Shown here: positions 3,156-25,234 of the stretch, piece after piece
Position numbering within the stretch: the first letter of the stretch is position 1
Layout: each line of letters starts with the position of its first letter
Source: a virus
Length of the DNA: 25,521 nucleotides
Reading direction: 5' to 3' (one strand)
IMG/VR virus record: IMGVR_UViG_3300030049_000298
Span: 1-25,521 of that record
Translations under genes and position numbers: made by a program
Notes under the pieces: generated by a model
Seen by the model: only the letters and a program-made list of their open reading frames with translations
Database searches by the model: none
Told to the model about the DNA's origin: nothing

Positions 3156-3347
3156 TCAAGCTCCTATTTGATGAAGTTTTTCTCGAAGTTCTTCTATTTC
3201 ATAAGCCATTGCCATCATACAATTAACTCCAGACCAGGAGTCTTTAAGCCACGGTTCACCATGACGTAGAATTCTACAAGTTCCGTCAGATAACTGTTGA
3301 ATTGTATACTTTCCACCAGAAATGTCAATACTAAATGTAATATTCAT
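3156..3347 (-). CDS. Small protein of unknown function, 63 aa
   Basis: The N-terminal half appears to be a beta-hairpin module (FSIDISGGKYTIQQLSDGT, then CRILRHGEPW), followed by a helix (MMAMAYEIEELREKLHQIG). No family is recognised. Its ATG overlaps the stop of RNA ligase (TAATG), and GGGAGAA inside the ligase 3' end is its ribosome-binding site, so it is coupled to the ligase. Confidence 0.6.
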   Translation of the reverse strand: MNITFSIDISGGKYTIQQLSDGTCRILRHGEPWLKDSWSGVNCMMAMAYEIEELREKLHQIGA

Positions 3348-4663
3348 TAAAATTCTCCCTCCAATTCATCTTCAATACTATTACCTTCCCAAATATTCCA
3401 GATCGGAAGATCATTTTGGAAGATATTTTTACGAACTTCCGATTCAAACTTACTAGTCGAACCACAAGCTTTAACAATCATGTCGCGCAGATTGTCTTCA
3501 ATCGAGCCAGAAAGTTCAATATTATTCCATTCTTCAAAAAGTTTAAATCCAATGCGCTTAGCAATAGGACTTACTTCTTCATTTAGAGCAAATTCCTTTC
3601 GAGCAGCACGAGAATTCATTTCTCGAAGATTATCAGAGTTTTCAAACATACCTTCACCAACTTCATCAATCTTATATTTTTCATTGGCATTAACTAAAGC
3701 AGGAACCAATTCATTATGATATTGTCCTAAAACCTCATTATAACGTTTTACAACACCTTTGGCATAAATTTCAAGATTGTTACGATAATGTTCAGGAACC
3801 AAAGGAATAATGTCATCAATGGTATCAGACATAATACATTGAAATACATAACGTTCAGTTTCAATGGCACTACGAGTACGATGTAAAAGTTTGTAATCAT
3901 CACCTTTAATTTTTACGCGGCGGCCATTAGGAAATTGAACAACAACACCCTCTTCGTCCTTTAAGTCGGTAATCATTTGGATAAAATCTTCGGGATTTTG
4001 ACCGTCTTCAATCACCCAACGCTTTACAATAGGAATATTCCACTTATCATTAAACCAAATAAGGTCTTCATAATTAAAATACTTTCCGGTTCTGTTTTCT
4101 CGAATAGCAAGAAGAACAAGATTTTCTTTCGGATAATTAATAATTATCCGATGAAGAGGATTTCCAACATATTCAAAAATTGCAGTATATTCATTTCCTA
4201 AAAATTGAATAAAACGCAAATATTCGGGATTTTTATCAACAAAAGTTTGAATATCGGGGCTCATATGAGTAATTCCAGCCTTTGTGCATGGTTCGATTTT
4301 TCCATTAATCTTTACAAATCGAACCATGCTACCATCAAGCTTGTCATAAGCTTCATATGAAGACCAATCAAGATTTTTGAAAGAATTTGGATTGCCTTGA
4401 TTTAAATTCATGAACTTATGAAATGGTAGGCTAATAAGTTCCTTTTCTTTTGAAAATATGGTCCCACGCATGTTGAAGCGCAAAGAACGCATTAGGCGTT
4501 CATGATCAGAAATTGCTTGTGCATCAGGATCATCAAATTCTGCCATAATGCTTACATAGTTAAAAACGAAATAATCGCCTTTATCATACATTTTGAAATC
4601 ATCTCGTCCTTGGATGGCTTCCATCCAAGTTTCAAAATTATTCGTGAAGGGCCAATGTTCCAT
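3347..4663 (-). CDS. rnlA: T4 Rnl1-type RNA ligase, 438 aa
   Basis: ATP-dependent RNA ligase that joins 3'-OH to 5'-phosphate RNA ends through a lysyl-AMP intermediate. The nucleotidyltransferase motifs appear in order: motif I KLDGS with Lys108 as the expected AMP acceptor, motif III/IIIa FEYVGNPLHRIIINY (163-177), motif IV DEEGVVVQF (237-245) and motif V RVKIKGDDY (249-257). The last 180 residues form the helical C-terminal domain typical of Rnl1, where it contributes tRNA specificity. T4 Rnl1 repairs tRNA cut in the anticodon loop by the host nuclease PrrC. No polynucleotide kinase partner is in this window. The gene has its own promoter (4684-4712) and ribosome-binding site GGAGATAG. Confidence 0.92.
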   Translation of the reverse strand: MEHWPFTNNFETWMEAIQGRDDFKMYDKGDYFVFNYVSIMAEFDDPDAQAISDHERLMRSLRFNMRGTIFSKEKELISLPFHKFMNLNQGNPNSFKNLDWSSYEAYDKLDGSMVRFVKINGKIEPCTKAGITHMSPDIQTFVDKNPEYLRFIQFLGNEYTAIFEYVGNPLHRIIINYPKENLVLLAIRENRTGKYFNYEDLIWFNDKWNIPIVKRWVIEDGQNPEDFIQMITDLKDEEGVVVQFPNGRRVKIKGDDYKLLHRTRSAIETERYVFQCIMSDTIDDIIPLVPEHYRNNLEIYAKGVVKRYNEVLGQYHNELVPALVNANEKYKIDEVGEGMFENSDNLREMNSRAARKEFALNEEVSPIAKRIGFKLFEEWNNIELSGSIEDNLRDMIVKACGSTSKFESEVRKNIFQNDLPIWNIWEGNSIEDELEGEF

Positions 4664-4683
4664 TTCTATCTCCGTTAGAAAAT

Positions 4684-4712
4684 ACTTTAACGTATTTAGA
4701 TCATATTGTCAA
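4684..4712 (-). promoter_or_regulatory. Sigma70-type promoter for RNA ligase
   Basis: Minus-strand TTGACA (4707-4712) and TAAAGT (4684-4689) have 17-base spacing, about 20 bases upstream of the RNA ligase start. It is divergent from the plus-strand endonuclease gene. Confidence 0.65.
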
Positions 4713-4720
4713 CACTTATG

Positions 4721-4728
4721 TATAAATA
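4721..4728 (+). promoter_or_regulatory. T4 late-type promoter box TATAAATA
   Basis: The exact T4 late-promoter consensus TATAAATA stands 27 bases before the ATG of the plus-strand GIY-YIG gene. A comparable box lies at 17923-17930 on the minus strand, 29 bases before a gene start. Confidence 0.5.
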
Positions 4729-4754
4729 GTTATGAAACTTTTGAAGAGGAAAAA

Positions 4755-5459
4755 ATGTCTATTAGAACCTATTTAACAAAATTAAATGAAGAAAAAAATA
4801 CATATAGATATTATGTGTATGCATATTTACGTGAAGATGGAAGTCCATATTATATTGGTAAAGGAACTAAAGATCGTGCTTGGATTAATCATAGAACAAA
4901 AGAAGGAGGAACACAACTTCCTAGAAATAGAAATAATATTATTTTATTAGAGATAAATTTATCTGATATTGGAGCGTGTGCATTGGAACGCAGATTAATT
5001 CGTTGGTATGGTAGAAAAGATATTGGAACAGGAATTCTTCATAATAGAACCGATGGAGGTGAATCACAACCAAAAAAACATCCATTCTATCACAAATTAA
5101 ATTTAACAGATGAAGAATTTAAAAATATATTAATTGAAGAAACCAACAAAGGAATTTCAAGAGGTAAGATTGCAAAAAGGTTGGGCGTATCTGAAGCAGC
5201 AATTAATATATGGTTTAAAAAATTAAATCTTCAACGTAGAAGAAATGAACTGCGTGATCCTGAAATACTCTATGATTTATATGTTAATCAACAATTGAGT
5301 GCTGGACAGATAGGAATTAAAATAAACTGCACTAACGCTGCCGTACAACAATATCTCAAAAAATTCAATATTCCAATAAGGAATGCTTCAGAAAGACAAA
5401 AATTATCTTGGAAAAATCCAAATTCAAAACAAACATATCAACATTTAAATAATCATTAA
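4755..5459 (+). CDS. GIY-YIG homing endonuclease, 234 aa
   Basis: Free-standing homing-type endonuclease, the only intact gene on the plus strand. The N-terminal GIY-YIG nuclease domain is clear: YVYAYL and YYIGKGTKDRAW (Arg of KDRAW is the expected catalytic Arg), then ALERRLIRWYG with the conserved metal-binding Glu, and NRTDGGE. After about residue 115 come two helix-turn-helix DNA-binding repeats (GISRGKIAKRLGVSEAAIN and LSAGQIGIKINCTNAAVQQY). The start at ATG 4755 is supported by AGAGGA four bases upstream and the TATAAATA box. The gene fills the gap between RNA ligase and the convergent 5456-5641 gene, overlapping the latter's stop, as expected for a mobile intergenic insertion. Confidence 0.88.
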   Translation: MSIRTYLTKLNEEKNTYRYYVYAYLREDGSPYYIGKGTKDRAWINHRTKEGGTQLPRNRNNIILLEINLSDIGACALERRLIRWYGRKDIGTGILHNRTDGGESQPKKHPFYHKLNLTDEEFKNILIEETNKGISRGKIAKRLGVSEAAINIWFKKLNLQRRRNELRDPEILYDLYVNQQLSAGQIGIKINCTNAAVQQYLKKFNIPIRNASERQKLSWKNPNSKQTYQHLNNH

Positions 5460-9008: not shown

Positions 9009-10220
9009 TTAAACTCCAATTAATTCATCATAATTTGCTGTAAAATCAGATTCAATAAATTTGTCATCAATTTCCTTGAGTTTATTAGCCAGTTTTTTAC
9101 CTGTTTCATAACCCATTTTAATTAGATGATCACCCGTAACTGGTCTATTGGGAATTGTGTAATTATTAATATAATTAATCACGTGTTCTGATGGTTTTTT
9201 ATCCCCTTTGGTGGCCCAAAGTAGTTTATATTGATCAAGATATGCTTCTTTACCCATAATATAAAGCGCTTTACGAATTGTTTTTTCATTCCAATCTAGA
9301 ACCATTTTAGCATCGGAAATTATAGTATTTCTTAGACGTCTTTTTGTAATATTTGATAGCCGCATGGCTTTACAAAGATCATCAATCGCTTGTAGATTAT
9401 TTGGAATCATACTGCGAAGTCTAAGAATATCATCCGATTTAATTCCCCAACGTTCATTTAGAATTACAAGACCATGATAATCATCAAGACCTTTAAAATG
9501 AGGAATAAATTCTTTAATGATATCAAGGTTATTCATGTCTCGAACAATAAAACGACCTTTATCAATCTCTAGAATTTTTAGAAATTCTTTGGAAATTCGT
9601 TCTCTTGAAAGTTCTTTTAGATAATTCTTATATTTTGCACAAGCCATTTCAGAAGCAAAATCGGGCATTCCTTTTCCATAATATGCCATATGTCTAAAAT
9701 AACGCAATATACGAAGATAGTCTTCTTTGATTCTTTCTTCGGGATCGCCAACGAAAATCACTTTTCCTTTTAAACAATCTTCAATTCCATGACCAAGTGG
9801 ATCATGTACATTACCCTGATCATCAATTAGAATTGTATTCATTGAAAAATCTCTACGTTTTGCATCTTCTATCCAAGAATTGGTAAATTCTACTGTAGCA
9901 CGACGCCCATCAGTTTCCAAATCTTTTCTAAGTGTCGTAGACTCCACGCAAAGACCATTTCTAAAAATACTTACGGTTCCATGCAAAAGACCAGTTTCCT
10001 GTACTTTAAATCCAAGTGTATTTCTAAAAATTTCAATTACTTTTTCAACAGGAATTTTTGTGGCTAAATCAACATCATTAATAGGGAGTTTTAATAACGT
10101 ATTTCTTGAAGCTCCTCCACAGACTCTTACACAATCTTTTCCGCCCTTAGTACGAAAAATGTCGAAAATATCTTGTAGTCGTTGATCTTGAAACCAAGCT
10201 TCATTCGCAATGTTCATCAT
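9009..10220 (-). CDS. cca: CCA-adding enzyme (tRNA nucleotidyltransferase), 403 aa
   Basis: Class II enzyme that adds or repairs the 3' CCA of tRNA. The head domain shows motif A (VCGGASRN, then NDVDLAT with catalytic Asp49 and Asp51), motif C (TDGRRATVEF), motif D (IEDAKRRDFSMNT, 114-126, expected to set CTP/ATP choice) and motif E (ERIKEDYLRILRYFR, 159-173). The rest is the helical tRNA-binding body. The ETDGRRATVEF and EDAKRRDF forms look like the alphaproteobacterial version. The usual GGAVRD is altered to GGASRN. All five tRNAs upstream encode CCA, so repair fits better than maturation. A weak promoter (TTGATT at 10249-10254, TATAAT at 10227-10232) would give an almost leaderless message. 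ATG 10217 is an equally possible start. Confidence 0.93.
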   Translation of the reverse strand: MMNIANEAWFQDQRLQDIFDIFRTKGGKDCVRVCGGASRNTLLKLPINDVDLATKIPVEKVIEIFRNTLGFKVQETGLLHGTVSIFRNGLCVESTTLRKDLETDGRRATVEFTNSWIEDAKRRDFSMNTILIDDQGNVHDPLGHGIEDCLKGKVIFVGDPEERIKEDYLRILRYFRHMAYYGKGMPDFASEMACAKYKNYLKELSRERISKEFLKILEIDKGRFIVRDMNNLDIIKEFIPHFKGLDDYHGLVILNERWGIKSDDILRLRSMIPNNLQAIDDLCKAMRLSNITKRRLRNTIISDAKMVLDWNEKTIRKALYIMGKEAYLDQYKLLWATKGDKKPSEHVINYINNYTIPNRPVTGDHLIKMGYETGKKLANKLKEIDDKFIESDFTANYDELIGV

Positions 10221-10250
10221 AAATCCATTATATATTATTTTGATAAAAAA

Positions 10251-11249
10251 TCAAGTTTTTTGTTTAAAAATTTCCGCCAAAGAATATTCACGAGGTGTTG
10301 TTCCCAAAGTTATATTGTTTAATTCCGCCACCTTTAAACTTTCATTATAAGTTAAAGATCTGAATTTAACAATATCAAAACAACGTCCAGGACGTCTTAA
10401 TGCTTCATCAATTTGTCTAATATCATTAATATTAGCAGTGAAAATCATTTTTTTGTTTTCAAAAGATACTAAACCATCAGCCGCATTAAGAATTTTAGAC
10501 ATAACCCGATTATTATCATGTAGACGATCTTTTAGAAGAAGATCAGCATCTTCTAATACAAGAAAATTGGCGTCCGAATTTGAAAGAAAGTTTACATATA
10601 ATTGATCATCTTGCATAACAATATCATCATATGTTACATAACAACAACCATCACCTCTAGTTAACATATTTCTAAGAAGACTAGTTTTACCAGTCCCCGG
10701 AGGACCTAAAAATATTAATATATTTTCTGTACTATTAAGAAAACTATCAACATATTCATTTACATTTGGAATAAATGGATAATATTCATTTTTCAAATTA
10801 TAATGATTTTCTAAAGGAAATGATGAAGATTGGAGTCCGTTACTTCCTTTAAAAAACCAGTAGACAAAATTTTCTTTATTGGTTAAAATATAAATTTCTT
10901 CAATTTTACGATAAATTTGTTCGACATCAAAGACTAAACCGAAAATTGTAATATCAATTTTCCTATTAATAATACCAAACGGATTATTAACTTTATCGAT
11001 ATTACAAACCATAAATAAAGTTTTATTTTGAATTACAAATTTTGATGGACTTAAAATATCCAAAGAATTAATTGAAAATAAAGATCTTAAATTTGAAATA
11101 ATATTCGAAACAGATTCTTTAATATTAATATTTAAATTAATAACTAAATCTACAGTTTGTTTTTCTTTAAATTGATTTAAGAGAGTATCAACACCAAAAT
11201 CTTCAACTGCAGTTTCAGTATAAGATTGATAAGTTAAATTTGGATTCAT
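10251..11249 (-). CDS. BCS1-like AAA ATPase, 332 aa
   Basis: The C-terminal half is a single AAA+ module: Walker A GPPGTGKT (182-189), Walker B FLVLEDAD (229-236), sensor-1 region IFTANIND (269-276) and RRPGR (285-289), which matches the arginine-finger segment of BCS1/FtsH-type AAA proteins. The N-terminal 165 residues are phage-specific, beta-rich and without a transmembrane segment, unlike mitochondrial BCS1. It probably remodels or unfolds a protein or ribonucleoprotein; the target is unknown. The gene begins only 23 bases after the last tRNA gene and has no strong ribosome-binding site or own promoter, so it is co-transcribed with the tRNAs and the CCA-adding enzyme. Confidence 0.88.
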   Translation of the reverse strand: MNPNLTYQSYTETAVEDFGVDTLLNQFKEKQTVDLVINLNINIKESVSNIISNLRSLFSINSLDILSPSKFVIQNKTLFMVCNIDKVNNPFGIINRKIDITIFGLVFDVEQIYRKIEEIYILTNKENFVYWFFKGSNGLQSSSFPLENHYNLKNEYYPFIPNVNEYVDSFLNSTENILIFLGPPGTGKTSLLRNMLTRGDGCCYVTYDDIVMQDDQLYVNFLSNSDANFLVLEDADLLLKDRLHDNNRVMSKILNAADGLVSFENKKMIFTANINDIRQIDEALRRPGRCFDIVKFRSLTYNESLKVAELNNITLGTTPREYSLAEIFKQKT

Positions 11250-11493: not shown

Positions 11494-11648
11494 TGGTAGC
11501 CCATCTCGGACTCGAACCGAGAAGCCGAAGCACTGGATTTTGATTTTTGCTTATTCAGGATTTGCACCTTCAATATATAATTGTTCTATAGAGTTATCAT
11601 ACTCTACTTTAAGCCGTCCAGCATGTTTACCAATTTCATCAATGGGCC
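11494..11648 (-). tRNA. tRNA-Leu (probably CAA) interrupted by a 72-nt insertion in the anticodon loop
   Basis: Acceptor GGCCCAT/ATGGGCT, A73 and encoded CCA, a Leu-type D arm (ATG-AAATTGGTAAA-CAT) nearly identical to that of the neighbouring tRNA-Leu, anticodon stem CTGGA (11617-11621)/TCCAG (11533-11537), a short class II variable arm and T arm CTCGG-TTCGAGT-CCGAG are all intact. Between the two halves of the anticodon stem are 79 nt instead of 7. Removing 72 nt leaves loop NTCAAAA, anticodon CAA. The insertion folds: GCTTA pairs with TAAGC, enclosing TAGAGT/ACTCTA, CAAT/ATTG and AGG/CCT. It is too short for a normal group I intron. It could be an intron-like element or a dead tRNA. Confidence 0.75.
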
Positions 11649-11657
11649 ATAATATTT

Positions 11658-11743
11658 TGGTGCCTCTGACAAGATTTGAACTTGCAACCATTTAAGGACT
11701 AGGGTTTGAGCCTAGCGTGTATTGCCATTTTCACCACAGAGGC
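11658..11743 (-). tRNA. tRNA-Leu (CAA)
   Basis: Acceptor GCCTCTG/CAGAGGC, A73 and encoded CCA. Anticodon stem CTAGG/CCTAG encloses loop CTCAAAC, anticodon CAA. Class II variable arm; T arm GCAAG-TTCAAAT-CTTGT. Its anticodon duplicates the one inferred for the interrupted tRNA-Leu next to it. Confidence 0.88.
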
Positions 11744-13184: not shown

Positions 13185-13625
13185 TTATTTTGGTTTAGGT
13201 TTTGAAGTTGTAACTACAACATTTGCTGCAGGAACATTTGCACCACCTGGAGCTAATTTAATAAACAAATCAGAGAGGTTATCTAAACCTTGTACAAATT
13301 TTGCTTCCAAAAGCTGACTTAAACCAGCATCAGTAACACCCAATTTAGCCAAAGCTTCGGGGGTCAATTCTTTAAGATAAGCAGCAGCTGTTTTAATAAC
13401 GTCATCACGAACAGATGCTAAATCGGTACTTGATGGATTTTTGGCAGCAACAGATACTGCATAATTTAGAGCATTTGTAATTGCATCACTAAGATAGGCC
13501 CTACGAACATCTCCCGCTTGAAGATTGAGAAATTGCCATATATAAGGTACAATTGATGCAACAAGAGCTGCAATAACCCAACCCGAAAATGGACTTACAA
13601 AAGTAATAATTGTTGATAATGTCAT
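13185..13625 (-). CDS. Holin-like small membrane protein, 146 aa
   Basis: ATG at 13625 (AAGGAA eight bases upstream) is preferred to the frame start at 13715, which lies inside the nuclease gene. An N-terminal hydrophobic helix (residues 3-31, with PFSGWVIAALVASIVPYIW) is followed by a soluble helical region (DAITNALNYAVSVAA, then VIKTAAAYLKELTPEAL and GLSQLLEAKF) and a Pro/Lys-rich tail (TTSKPKPK). One membrane helix plus an Ala-rich helical domain matches the LLH-type phage holin pattern as I remember it. No lysin gene is beside it, so lysis function is unproven. It is the last gene before the terminator. Confidence 0.5.
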   Translation of the reverse strand: MTLSTIITFVSPFSGWVIAALVASIVPYIWQFLNLQAGDVRRAYLSDAITNALNYAVSVAAKNPSSTDLASVRDDVIKTAAAYLKELTPEALAKLGVTDAGLSQLLEAKFVQGLDNLSDLFIKLAPGGANVPAANVVVTTSKPKPK

Positions 13626-13653
13626 AATTAAAATTCCTTGTGTTAAATGTGTA

Positions 13654-14322
13654 TTATTTAGTATCAAACCATTTAATTTCTTCAAGATATGCGTATAAAA
13701 TTTTGACACATTCATTCATTGATTTGATTAAAATTTGGGGTTCAACTTCATCTTCAACACTAATAATTAGAACACATTGTTTTGGAAGAAGATTTTGATC
13801 TTTGGTTAATTCGGCCCACATTATTCCATAACATGCCAATTGACACCAATAATTTAAAACATATTTGTCCAATTTTAATTTTTTGGAAGTTTTATAATCG
13901 ATTACGCTTGGAACTTCATCAAATAGACCAATGATATCAGTTCTACCTGCTAATTTTAATCTATGAGAATATAAGGCAACTTCTGATGCCCATATGGCAC
14001 CTATTCTTTCATCAATAACTTTTTTGAGTCCTTTAAATCTTTTTCTTTCAATTGGATTTAAATTTGGAAGAGGTTCATCTTTAACATAGGCTTCACATAA
14101 ATTGTGAATGATTGTACCGAAATTGGCTGCTTGTTTTGTTTGTCTAGCTGCTTCTTCATGTCCAATTCTATCCCTCCAGCGATCAAGACCTTCTTTTCCA
14201 AAATCTTTGAGCATAGTTGTAACAGATTTATATTTTTCACCATTTGGTGTTATATAATTTCTAAAACCATTGATATTTACTGTGTCTAATTTTAGATCAA
14301 ATTTTATATCTAGATAAGCCAC
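13654..14322 (-). CDS. PD-(D/E)XK (RecB/Cas4-like) nuclease, 222 aa
   Basis: Single-domain exonuclease of the RecB-type PD-(D/E)XK superfamily. The motifs are GTIIH (His73), GRTD (Asp129), VIDYKTSK (Asp142 and Lys144) and, after the core, QLACY (Gln161, Tyr165), which is the QxxxY motif of the RecB/AddB/Cas4 branch. There are no iron-sulfur cysteines as in Cas4 and no helicase domain. The start is GTG at 14322; its G is shared with the TAG stop of the upstream small gene, so translation is coupled. It probably trims DNA in phage recombination or host DNA breakdown, next to PhoH and the 5' nuclease. Confidence 0.85.
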   Translation of the reverse strand: MAYLDIKFDLKLDTVNINGFRNYITPNGEKYKSVTTMLKDFGKEGLDRWRDRIGHEEAARQTKQAANFGTIIHNLCEAYVKDEPLPNLNPIERKRFKGLKKVIDERIGAIWASEVALYSHRLKLAGRTDIIGLFDEVPSVIDYKTSKKLKLDKYVLNYWCQLACYGIMWAELTKDQNLLPKQCVLIISVEDEVEPQILIKSMNECVKILYAYLEEIKWFDTK

Positions 14323-14513
14323 TATGCGTAAGTTTGTTCTTTCTTATTATAAATTCGTTGAATATCTAACATTATTTCGTGAAGAATAACTCCTGTTGGA
14401 TCACCACAAGACAATGATTTTTCTTGTTCGGTTTTCCATTCATTAAAATATTGAGTTAGAAGATTTAACTTCTCAAAAGTTGTAATTGGATATACTGATA
14501 AATTACGGATAAT
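14322..14513 (-). CDS. Small protein lacking a standard start codon, about 63 aa
   Basis: A clearly protein-like frame (RNLSVYPITTFEKLNLLTQY, then FNEWKTEQEK, GDPTGVILHEIMLDIQRIY) ends in TAG at 14322-14324, overlapping the nuclease GTG. Upstream it opens with ATA-ATT-ATC codons directly after a near-perfect GAGGAGG (14518-14524) inside the end of the HD gene, and has no ATG or GTG and no TTG before the middle of the protein. An AUU or AUC start is therefore likely. Function is unknown. Confidence 0.55.
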   Translation of the reverse strand: MIRNLSVYPITTFEKLNLLTQYFNEWKTEQEKSLSCGDPTGVILHEIMLDIQRIYNKKEQTYA

Positions 14514-24666: not shown

Positions 24667-24695
24667 ACTATATATGTTTTCTATTTATATGTCAA
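24667..24695 (-). promoter_or_regulatory. Sigma70-type promoter
   Basis: Minus-strand TTGACA (24690-24695) and TATAGT (24667-24672) have 17-base spacing. TATAAATA (24682-24689) lies in the spacer, as at 24100-24107. It overlaps the end of the GIY-YIG gene. Confidence 0.65.
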
Positions 24696-25155
24696 GAGAT
24701 ATTTCTGACATAATCTCTTTTTCTAAATTATATATGTTATTGACTTTTGATATAATTTGTGATCTAGATATTCTACAATTTATAATTCCATTATAAAATT
24801 CATTTGGTTTAAACAAAACGCCATAATACATTTGTATCCATGTTTCAAAATAGTTTAATAAAACTTTTGAATCAACAAACAATAATATTATTCTATCAAA
24901 ATTATCTTCACCATATAATTGTATATCTTTTTTTAACTCTTCGCAACTACCAAAATAAAAAATCCAATCACTTTGAACTTTAAAATGTCTTTTGTTATTT
25001 TTACCTTTTAATGGTTTTTTTGTTATTTTATTAAACAAAACTTTTTGACCAAAATACTTTTTATTATTAATTTTATTTTTTATCATATAAACAAAACCTA
25101 TTGCGTGTTCGGGGGGAACAATAATTTTTTGTTTTTTATATATCCATTCAGACAT
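24685..25155 (-). CDS. GIY-YIG-domain endonuclease-like protein, 156 aa
   Basis: A second GIY-YIG protein, unrelated in layout to the plus-strand one. GFVYMIKNKINNKKYFGQK (20-38) is the GIY-YIG pair in its FVY/YFG form, followed by a basic stretch (KPLKGKNNKRHFKVQSDW), IFYFGSCEELKKDIQLYG (65-82), and ETWIQ with the expected metal-binding Glu104, then FYNGI. This architecture is familiar from free-standing T4-like phage endonucleases. There is no helix-turn-helix. Start ATG 25155 is preferred to TTG 25161. It is co-oriented with its neighbours. Confidence 0.75.
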   Translation of the reverse strand: MSEWIYKKQKIIVPPEHAIGFVYMIKNKINNKKYFGQKVLFNKITKKPLKGKNNKRHFKVQSDWIFYFGSCEELKKDIQLYGEDNFDRIILLFVDSKVLLNYFETWIQMYYGVLFKPNEFYNGIINCRISRSQIISKVNNIYNLEKEIMSEISLDI

Positions 25156-25234
25156 AATCAAAGCCTAGAATTTGTTTTCTACATCTATACATGATAGTGG
25201 TTGCTGCTTTTGTTGTTTCAAAATCAACCATCAT
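25148..25234 (-). CDS. Very small protein, 28 aa
   Basis: From ATG at 25234 the frame reads MMVDFETTKAATTIMYRCRK then QILGFDYV and stops in TGA at 25148, overlapping the GIY-YIG start by eight bases. It looks protein-like and fits the tight packing, but has no clear ribosome-binding site. No function is recognised. Confidence 0.4.
   Translation of the reverse strand: MMVDFETTKAATTIMYRCRKQILGFDYV

Follow-up and report, generated by a model that had tools for sequence, protein, structure and literature searches.

The window analysed here, 25,521 bases long, is a virus record from IMG/VR. Under default settings, ARAGORN recognizes four tRNA genes in it, all on the minus strand, for Leu(UAA), Leu(CAA), Leu(UAG) and Thr(UGU). 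Between the Leu(CAA) and Leu(UAG) genes sits a fifth, likewise on the minus strand (11648-11494); it is a complete tRNA-Leu(CAA) gene whose anticodon loop holds 72 extra nucleotides (11615-11544). An earlier note on this DNA had described a tRNA-Leu split at precisely these coordinates, which are correct, and the gene is read from the minus strand. The intact Leu(CAA) gene that the note placed alongside it is also present according to ARAGORN (11658-11743) and adjoins the split gene, giving two Leu(CAA) genes at this location. The parts of the split gene are as follows:

11616..11648, minus strand: 5ʹ exon of 33 nt, with acceptor strand GGCCCAT, the D arm, the 5ʹ strand of the anticodon stem (CTGGA) and C32, assigned from the sequence and from ARAGORN on the joined exons
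11544..11615, minus strand: predicted 72-nt intron, composed of 1 nt, the span from P1 to P1ʹ and 5 nt, assigned from a covariance model (CM) and covariation
11494..11543, minus strand: 3ʹ exon of 50 nt, with UCAAAA (U33 and anticodon CAA), TCCAG (the 3ʹ strand of the anticodon stem), the variable arm, the T arm, acceptor strand ATGGGCT and ACCA

Neither ARAGORN nor Rfam calls this gene under default settings, and Rfam searches of the window at the gathering score return tRNA matches only. The unspliced gene goes uncalled, whereas the 83-nt product of joining the exons is called by ARAGORN as tRNA-Leu (caa). When run in intron mode on the split gene, ARAGORN reports tRNA-Leu (caa) with a 72-nt intron.

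At least eight tRNA genes are split by the same element; they come from several distantly related phages and have seven or more kinds of anticodon. The eight distinct introns range from 51 to 80 nt and represent a lower bound based on the viral-contig matches listed. Leu(CAA) is the interrupted tRNA in the window and in Caulobacter phage Cr30, and the others, found in metagenomic phages, are tRNA-Leu(UAA), -Gln(UUG), -Lys(UUU), -Thr(UGU), -Ala(UGC) and one tRNA with a UAA anticodon. This recurrence is not what random decay would produce.

In a blastn search of phages, the whole split gene, insert included, aligns to positions 81128-81292 of Cr30 (67%, E 0.06), where no feature is annotated; this alignment is weak by its E-value, yet the joints are conserved and the stems carry compensatory changes. 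The third intron came from searching IMG/VR for the two halves of a tRNA-Leu separated by a gap; it lies in a tRNA-Leu(UAA) gene that is identical in four contigs (L130, L146, L171 and L175). Scans based on a three-way consensus added tRNA-Thr(UGU) (L191), tRNA-Gln(UUG) (L214), tRNA-Lys(UUU) (L305) and tRNA-Ala(UGC) (L330), with the Ala and Thr introns on one contig. MAFFT alignment of all introns misaligned P2 and P3, and models were first built from three similar introns, those of the window, Cr30 and the Gln gene. This first CM detects introns outside its training set, with E-values of 1.1e-8 (Thr), 1.8e-5 (Ala), 8e-4 (Leu(UAA)) and 3.9e-3 (Lys), and a retrained CM yielded the eighth intron (L370), in the tRNA with a UAA anticodon from the Thr/Ala phage. 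The window intron scores 88.7 bits with CM R1, of which it is a training member, and 77.2 bits with CM R2. All phage CM matches with E < 0.01 fall in an anticodon loop.

Other searches define the reach of these methods. Two strict sequence patterns found Cr30 only, and of the five matches to a strict pattern in 85,000 prokaryote genomes, not one has the fold. The pattern TGCAAATN{8,22}AAAATCAAAA is too loose for discrimination, and the loci inspected among its listed matches were, besides the window and Cr30, coding or chance matches. Members from the TAGAW... scan of viral contigs are those among the matches listed, so the member count is to be read as 'at least'. No match was obtained by BLAST of the other introns against phages or of the window gene against plasmids, and a search for related loci with the window CCA-adding enzyme returned no relative. 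One CM match of 37.6 bits (L374; 296 genomes, in the phylum of G009) was rejected, being without a T-loop and a surrounding tRNA; because the CM alone yields such occasional false positives, tRNA context is part of the definition of the element. An assembly artefact was likewise rejected, since the element recurs in Cr30 and in several independent assemblies.

Some further interrupted genes were encountered. Six tRNA-Leu-like genes carry other, unrelated insertions that do not fit the fold and that, where ARAGORN calls them in intron mode, are about 44-72 nt long: L138 (reverse complement, ~2340), L143 (~7054), L163 (reverse complement, ~6665), L128 (reverse complement, ~928), L185 (~1021) and L154 (reverse complement, ~3101). 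They may be additional types of split phage tRNA, or genes in decay. The Rfam tRNA cut-off, which the window gene fails, is passed by L350:1468-1613 and L370:1462-1589 (39 and 47 bits) with a large insert.

All eight introns can be drawn with one consensus fold, consisting of 1 nt, P1 (5 bp), AA, P2 (usually closed by a G-U pair), AGAW, an optional P3, A, P4 (NNG UGCRAAY CNN, with a T-loop), RAA, P1ʹ and 5 nt. In the window, its elements are located as follows:

11610..11614, minus strand: 5ʹ strand of P1, GCUUA, pairing with 11549-11553; five pairs, 100% paired in the eight introns, four of the five with compensatory changes
11608..11609, minus strand: invariant joint AA between P1 and P2, found in 8/8 introns
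11588..11607, minus strand: P2 hairpin with a G-U closing pair; 97.8% paired, 5/6 pairs with compensatory changes
11584..11587, minus strand: joint AGAA; AGAW in most introns, AGUU in L330 and AUUA in the two introns lacking P3
11571..11583, minus strand: P3 hairpin, missing in two of the eight introns (L305, from the Lys gene, and L370)
11557..11569, minus strand: P4 hairpin AGG-UGCAAAU-CCU with the T-loop-like loop UGCRAAY; loop kept in 8/8 introns, stem covarying and 100% paired
11554..11556, minus strand: joint GAA; RAA in all introns
11549..11553, minus strand: 3ʹ strand of P1 (P1ʹ), UAAGC, supported by covariation
11544..11548, minus strand: 3ʹ tail AAAAA, preceding the predicted 3ʹ splice site; 5 nt in 8/8 introns when the 7-nt loop is restored

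The earlier note had seen a GCTTA/TAAGC stem enclosing three hairpins, the last resembling a T arm, and this arrangement proves to be both the minimum-energy fold of the insertion (z -2.2) and the structure upheld by covariation across the eight homologues. It is also contained within the minimum-energy fold of the whole precursor. Folding of single sequences recovers the consensus ab initio for five of the eight introns, and the minimum-energy folds of the remaining three (L130, L330 and L370) keep P1 but not the interior. In the alignment of the eight introns, 97.7% of pair cells are paired and compensatory double changes occur in 14 of the 18 pairs. This alignment is fitted to the model, but the conserved AA, T-loop and RAA provide a further anchor for P1 and P4. 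Cells with double changes number 44, compared with a mean of 13.0 after shuffling, and none of 500 shuffles was as good by any measure; slid control alignments are 31-41% paired. Judging from these sequence comparisons, chance or random decay is not a reasonable explanation of the window insertion.

The ends of the introns follow a simple rule, lying invariably 1 nt before P1 and 5 nt after P1ʹ. For the first members, from which it was derived, the rule is not an independent test. When the introns are cut accordingly, all eight products are called by ARAGORN as tRNAs with a 7-nt loop, whereas none of the eight precursors is called. ARAGORN in intron mode bases its lengths on a 7-nt loop without reference to P1, and for all eight introns these lengths (72, 73, 62, 80, 75, 51, 62 and 54) agree with those counted from P1. 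Insertion points nevertheless vary, from 32/33 (the three Leu genes) through 33/34 (Thr and Gln) and 34/35 (Ala and L370) to 35/36 (Lys). Because the insertion points vary while the distances to P1 are fixed, the ends follow the fold of the intron and not a tRNA coordinate. Three joined tRNAs were compared with those of other phages, and the products from Cr30 (tRNA-Leu), L370 and the Gln gene align unbroken to intronless tRNA-Leu, tRNA-Leu and tRNA-Gln, respectively. By these alignments, empty (intronless) sites exist.

No Rfam family matches the introns scanned at E<=10, and thus there is no group I, group II or ribozyme match. At 51-80 nt, the introns also do not have the features of group II. 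A bulge-helix-bulge (BHB) consists of two 3-nt bulges around a 4-bp helix and holds both splice sites, usually at position 37/38. In all of the phage precursors, the gap between the anticodon stem and P1 is instead one asymmetric 13-nt loop (sides of 2+11 to 5+8) with no central helix, and the sites are 32/33 (three), 33/34 (two), 34/35 (two) and 35/36 (one). Assignments as a BHB intron, a group I intron or a true nested tRNA were all rejected on such grounds, as was a resemblance of the T-loop to a cobalamin-riboswitch-like L5, for which there is no Rfam match.

We consider it likely, on the strength of this conserved and covarying architecture, that the insertion represents a class of very small, structured introns not described before. 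The 'unknown intron-like element' suggested earlier as one reading is thereby strongly supported. Its excision from the precursor RNA, followed by exon joining, would produce an 83-nt tRNA-Leu(CAA) in the window. The fold itself, with P1 and a junction that includes the T-loop hairpin, should set the cut sites, because the ends are fixed relative to P1 and not to tRNA position. Excision that is directed, and perhaps catalysed, by RNA is the favoured reading because the element is spread across hosts, its end distances are fixed and its unpaired joints are invariant. Sealing could be carried out by the intron RNA or by an RNA ligase, either a phage T4 RNA ligase 1-type (Rnl1) enzyme (window, Cr30 and G007) or host RtcB elsewhere. 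More tentatively, these RNAs might constitute a new ribozyme class, in which a T-loop-junction RNA of 51-80 nt excises itself, rejoins the exons and is spread by neighbouring homing endonucleases.

The proposed means of spread draws on the genes found next to the introns. Homing-endonuclease-like ORFs overlap or abut four of the eight interrupted tRNA genes:

L346, 1623-2147: HNH ORF at the split tRNA-Thr gene
L352, 1597-2238: HNH ORF at the split tRNA-Ala gene
L350, 1024-1536: HNH ORF at the split tRNA-Leu(UAA) gene
L345, 1620-2303: phrog_1271-like ORF at the split tRNA-Gln gene

In Cr30, a homing endonuclease lies 3 kb from the split tRNA. As a counter-case, an HNH endonuclease gene (L350, 2534-2965) stops one base before an intronless tRNA-Tyr gene. 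These associations are suggestive of linked homing endonuclease genes that help the introns to spread between tRNA genes by collaborative homing. The carriers themselves are divergent, with few proteins shared between long records and median identities of about 29-46%; the window and Cr30 are the closest pair (11 shared ORFs, about 38%).

Several other ORFs in these records were noted. Two ORFs of the window resemble homing endonucleases, one on the plus strand (4593-5459) that matches HNH/HTH phage families and one on the minus strand (24685-25161) that matches SegE GIY-YIG (PF19835, 3.4e-26), and neither lies close to the split tRNA. A small protein encoded on the minus strand (2712-2966) strongly matches a GapR-like DNA-binding domain (PF10073, 3.3e-28). 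GapR is known from Caulobacter and its relatives, and the match is fitting for an alphaproteobacterial host. The 134.5-kb contig G005 carries several large homing endonuclease genes and two large ORFs (L381:7973-10849 and L376:9816-12398) that both match terminase large subunit profiles.

The main rival to RNA-directed excision is protein-dependent splicing, wherein a phage or host nuclease recognizes the folded intron and cuts it at both ends, after which the exons are sealed by host RtcB or by Rnl1 together with a polynucleotide kinase. Two genes of the window are relevant in this regard, the second as context only:

3347..4663, minus strand: T4 RNA ligase 1-type protein (PF09511, 2.1e-18; phrog_562, 9e-52), a candidate sealing enzyme
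9009..10220, minus strand: CCA-adding tRNA nucleotidyltransferase (PF01743, 1.2e-20; phrog_2244)

Rnl1-type ligases are encoded by the window, Cr30 and G007. In Cr30 (L368), the ORFs at 9037-9531, 9524-10720 and 13391-14464 comprise overlapping ORFs for Rnl1 and for an AAA_33 kinase like T4 Pnkp, together with a second RNA ligase nearby (PF09414), and these predicted genes are a ready tRNA repair set. G007 likewise has a PF09414 match and a kinase homologue. However, no match to PF09511, PF09414 or RtcB was found in G005, a possibly incomplete contig that carries three introns; Rnl1 is common without the intron, which the CM found in none of 12 named Rnl1-bearing phages checked; and no nuclease common to the carriers was identified. 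The link to an RNA ligase drawn in the earlier note therefore stands as possible for the window but does not generalize, and we regard splicing by proteins as possible though somewhat doubtful.

A second alternative holds that the insert is a tRNA mimic, a miniature tRNA-like domain that host RNase P and a 3ʹ endonuclease excise before the exons are ligated. RNase P and RNase Z type cuts leave 3ʹ-OH and 5ʹ-phosphate ends that Rnl1 can join, and such ends would suit the ligases described above. The order of the arms is indeed that of a tRNA (P1 as acceptor, P2 as D arm, P3 as anticodon arm and P4, with its T-loop, as T arm), and if the first nucleotide of the intron faces the first nucleotide of the tail, a 4-nt 3ʹ overhang results as in tRNA (CCCA in L370). 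The resemblance to a tRNA nested in a tRNA ends there, as neither the Rfam tRNA covariance model nor ARAGORN recognizes anything within the intron coordinates, RAA separates P4 from P1ʹ and so breaks the stack of T arm on acceptor, the tail is not NCCA in 7/8 introns, and P3 is missing in 2/8. Processing as a tRNA mimic is thus unlikely.

Slightly less probable still is that the insert is never spliced, the gene being either decayed or host to a stable structured insert with another role, such as a decoy or regulator. The window would permit this, as the exception among the carriers: its intact Leu(CAA) gene makes loss of the split copy tolerable. Against it, the covarying fold is conserved in eight tRNA genes, the exons are intact in 8/8 and their joined products are recognized. 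Moreover, by counts from contigs that may be incomplete, four phages show no other tRNA with the anticodon of the split one. ARAGORN lists five tRNAs in Cr30, none for Leu; 36 in G003, none for Leu(UAA); 34 in G007, none for Lys(UUU); and 28 in G005, without Thr, Ala or Leu(UAA). In each case, the split genes (three in G005) supply what is missing. The dead tRNA gene offered earlier as the null explanation is accordingly disfavoured.

Group I introns have G as the last intron base at the 3ʹ splice site. A reduced group I intron is hardly credible, for although bacterial tRNA anticodon loops do host group I introns that travel with homing endonucleases (PMC3984707), the phage elements are only 51-80 nt long, match no Rfam family at E<=10, form a single 3- or 4-way branched junction in place of the group I core (P3-P9), and in no case end in G (predicted last bases A, A, A, U, A, C, A and A).

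If the elements are spliced, as we favour, they would represent a class of intron distinct from the group I, group II, spliceosomal and BHB types. Novelty as an intron class is conditional on splicing, and an element spliced only by proteins would rather be a variant of tRNA intron. An intron of this kind that spliced itself would be a natural splicing RNA of very small size, and we know of no self-splicing RNA this small. Default tRNA gene finding would, given splicing, be overlooking working tRNAs, with split genes supplying Leu, Thr, Ala and Lys in four phages. Since Cr30, among the carriers, is a named phage that infects the laboratory bacterium Caulobacter crescentus, the chemistry is directly testable. 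Our survey of the literature, with preprints and most subscription papers outside its coverage, returned no report of such an intron. According to a 2014 review, all phage introns then known were in protein-coding genes despite the many tRNA genes of phages (PMC3984707), and spliced elements of this kind would be introns in phage tRNA genes, unknown at the time of that review (PMC3984707).

Several known systems share some of these characteristics. Group I introns of tRNA genes, including cyanobacterial tRNA-Leu(UAA), also occupy the anticodon loop in a bacterial setting and are linked with homing endonucleases, but they are four to five times larger and have a P3-P9 core, whereas the phage introns are unmatched by Rfam. 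T4 Rnl1 and Pnkp repair breaks in the anticodon loop. Homologues of Rnl1 occur in three intron-bearing records, but the T4 system reseals loops cut by the host and removes no intron, and in G005 no ligase was found. The protein-spliced introns of archaea and eukaryotes (EndA/TSEN with RtcB or Trl1) are similarly small, reside in the anticodon loop and restore a 7-nt loop upon removal. However, they use site 37/38 and a BHB, whereas the phage introns use sites 32-36, possess their own multi-helix fold and keep fixed distances from it to their ends. Finally, ORF-less group I introns of phages can be moved by a neighbouring free-standing endonuclease through collaborative homing (PMC3984707). The phage tRNA introns resemble this arrangement in being small, ORF-less and located beside free-standing homing endonuclease genes, but they differ in that they are not group I introns and the genes that host them encode tRNAs.
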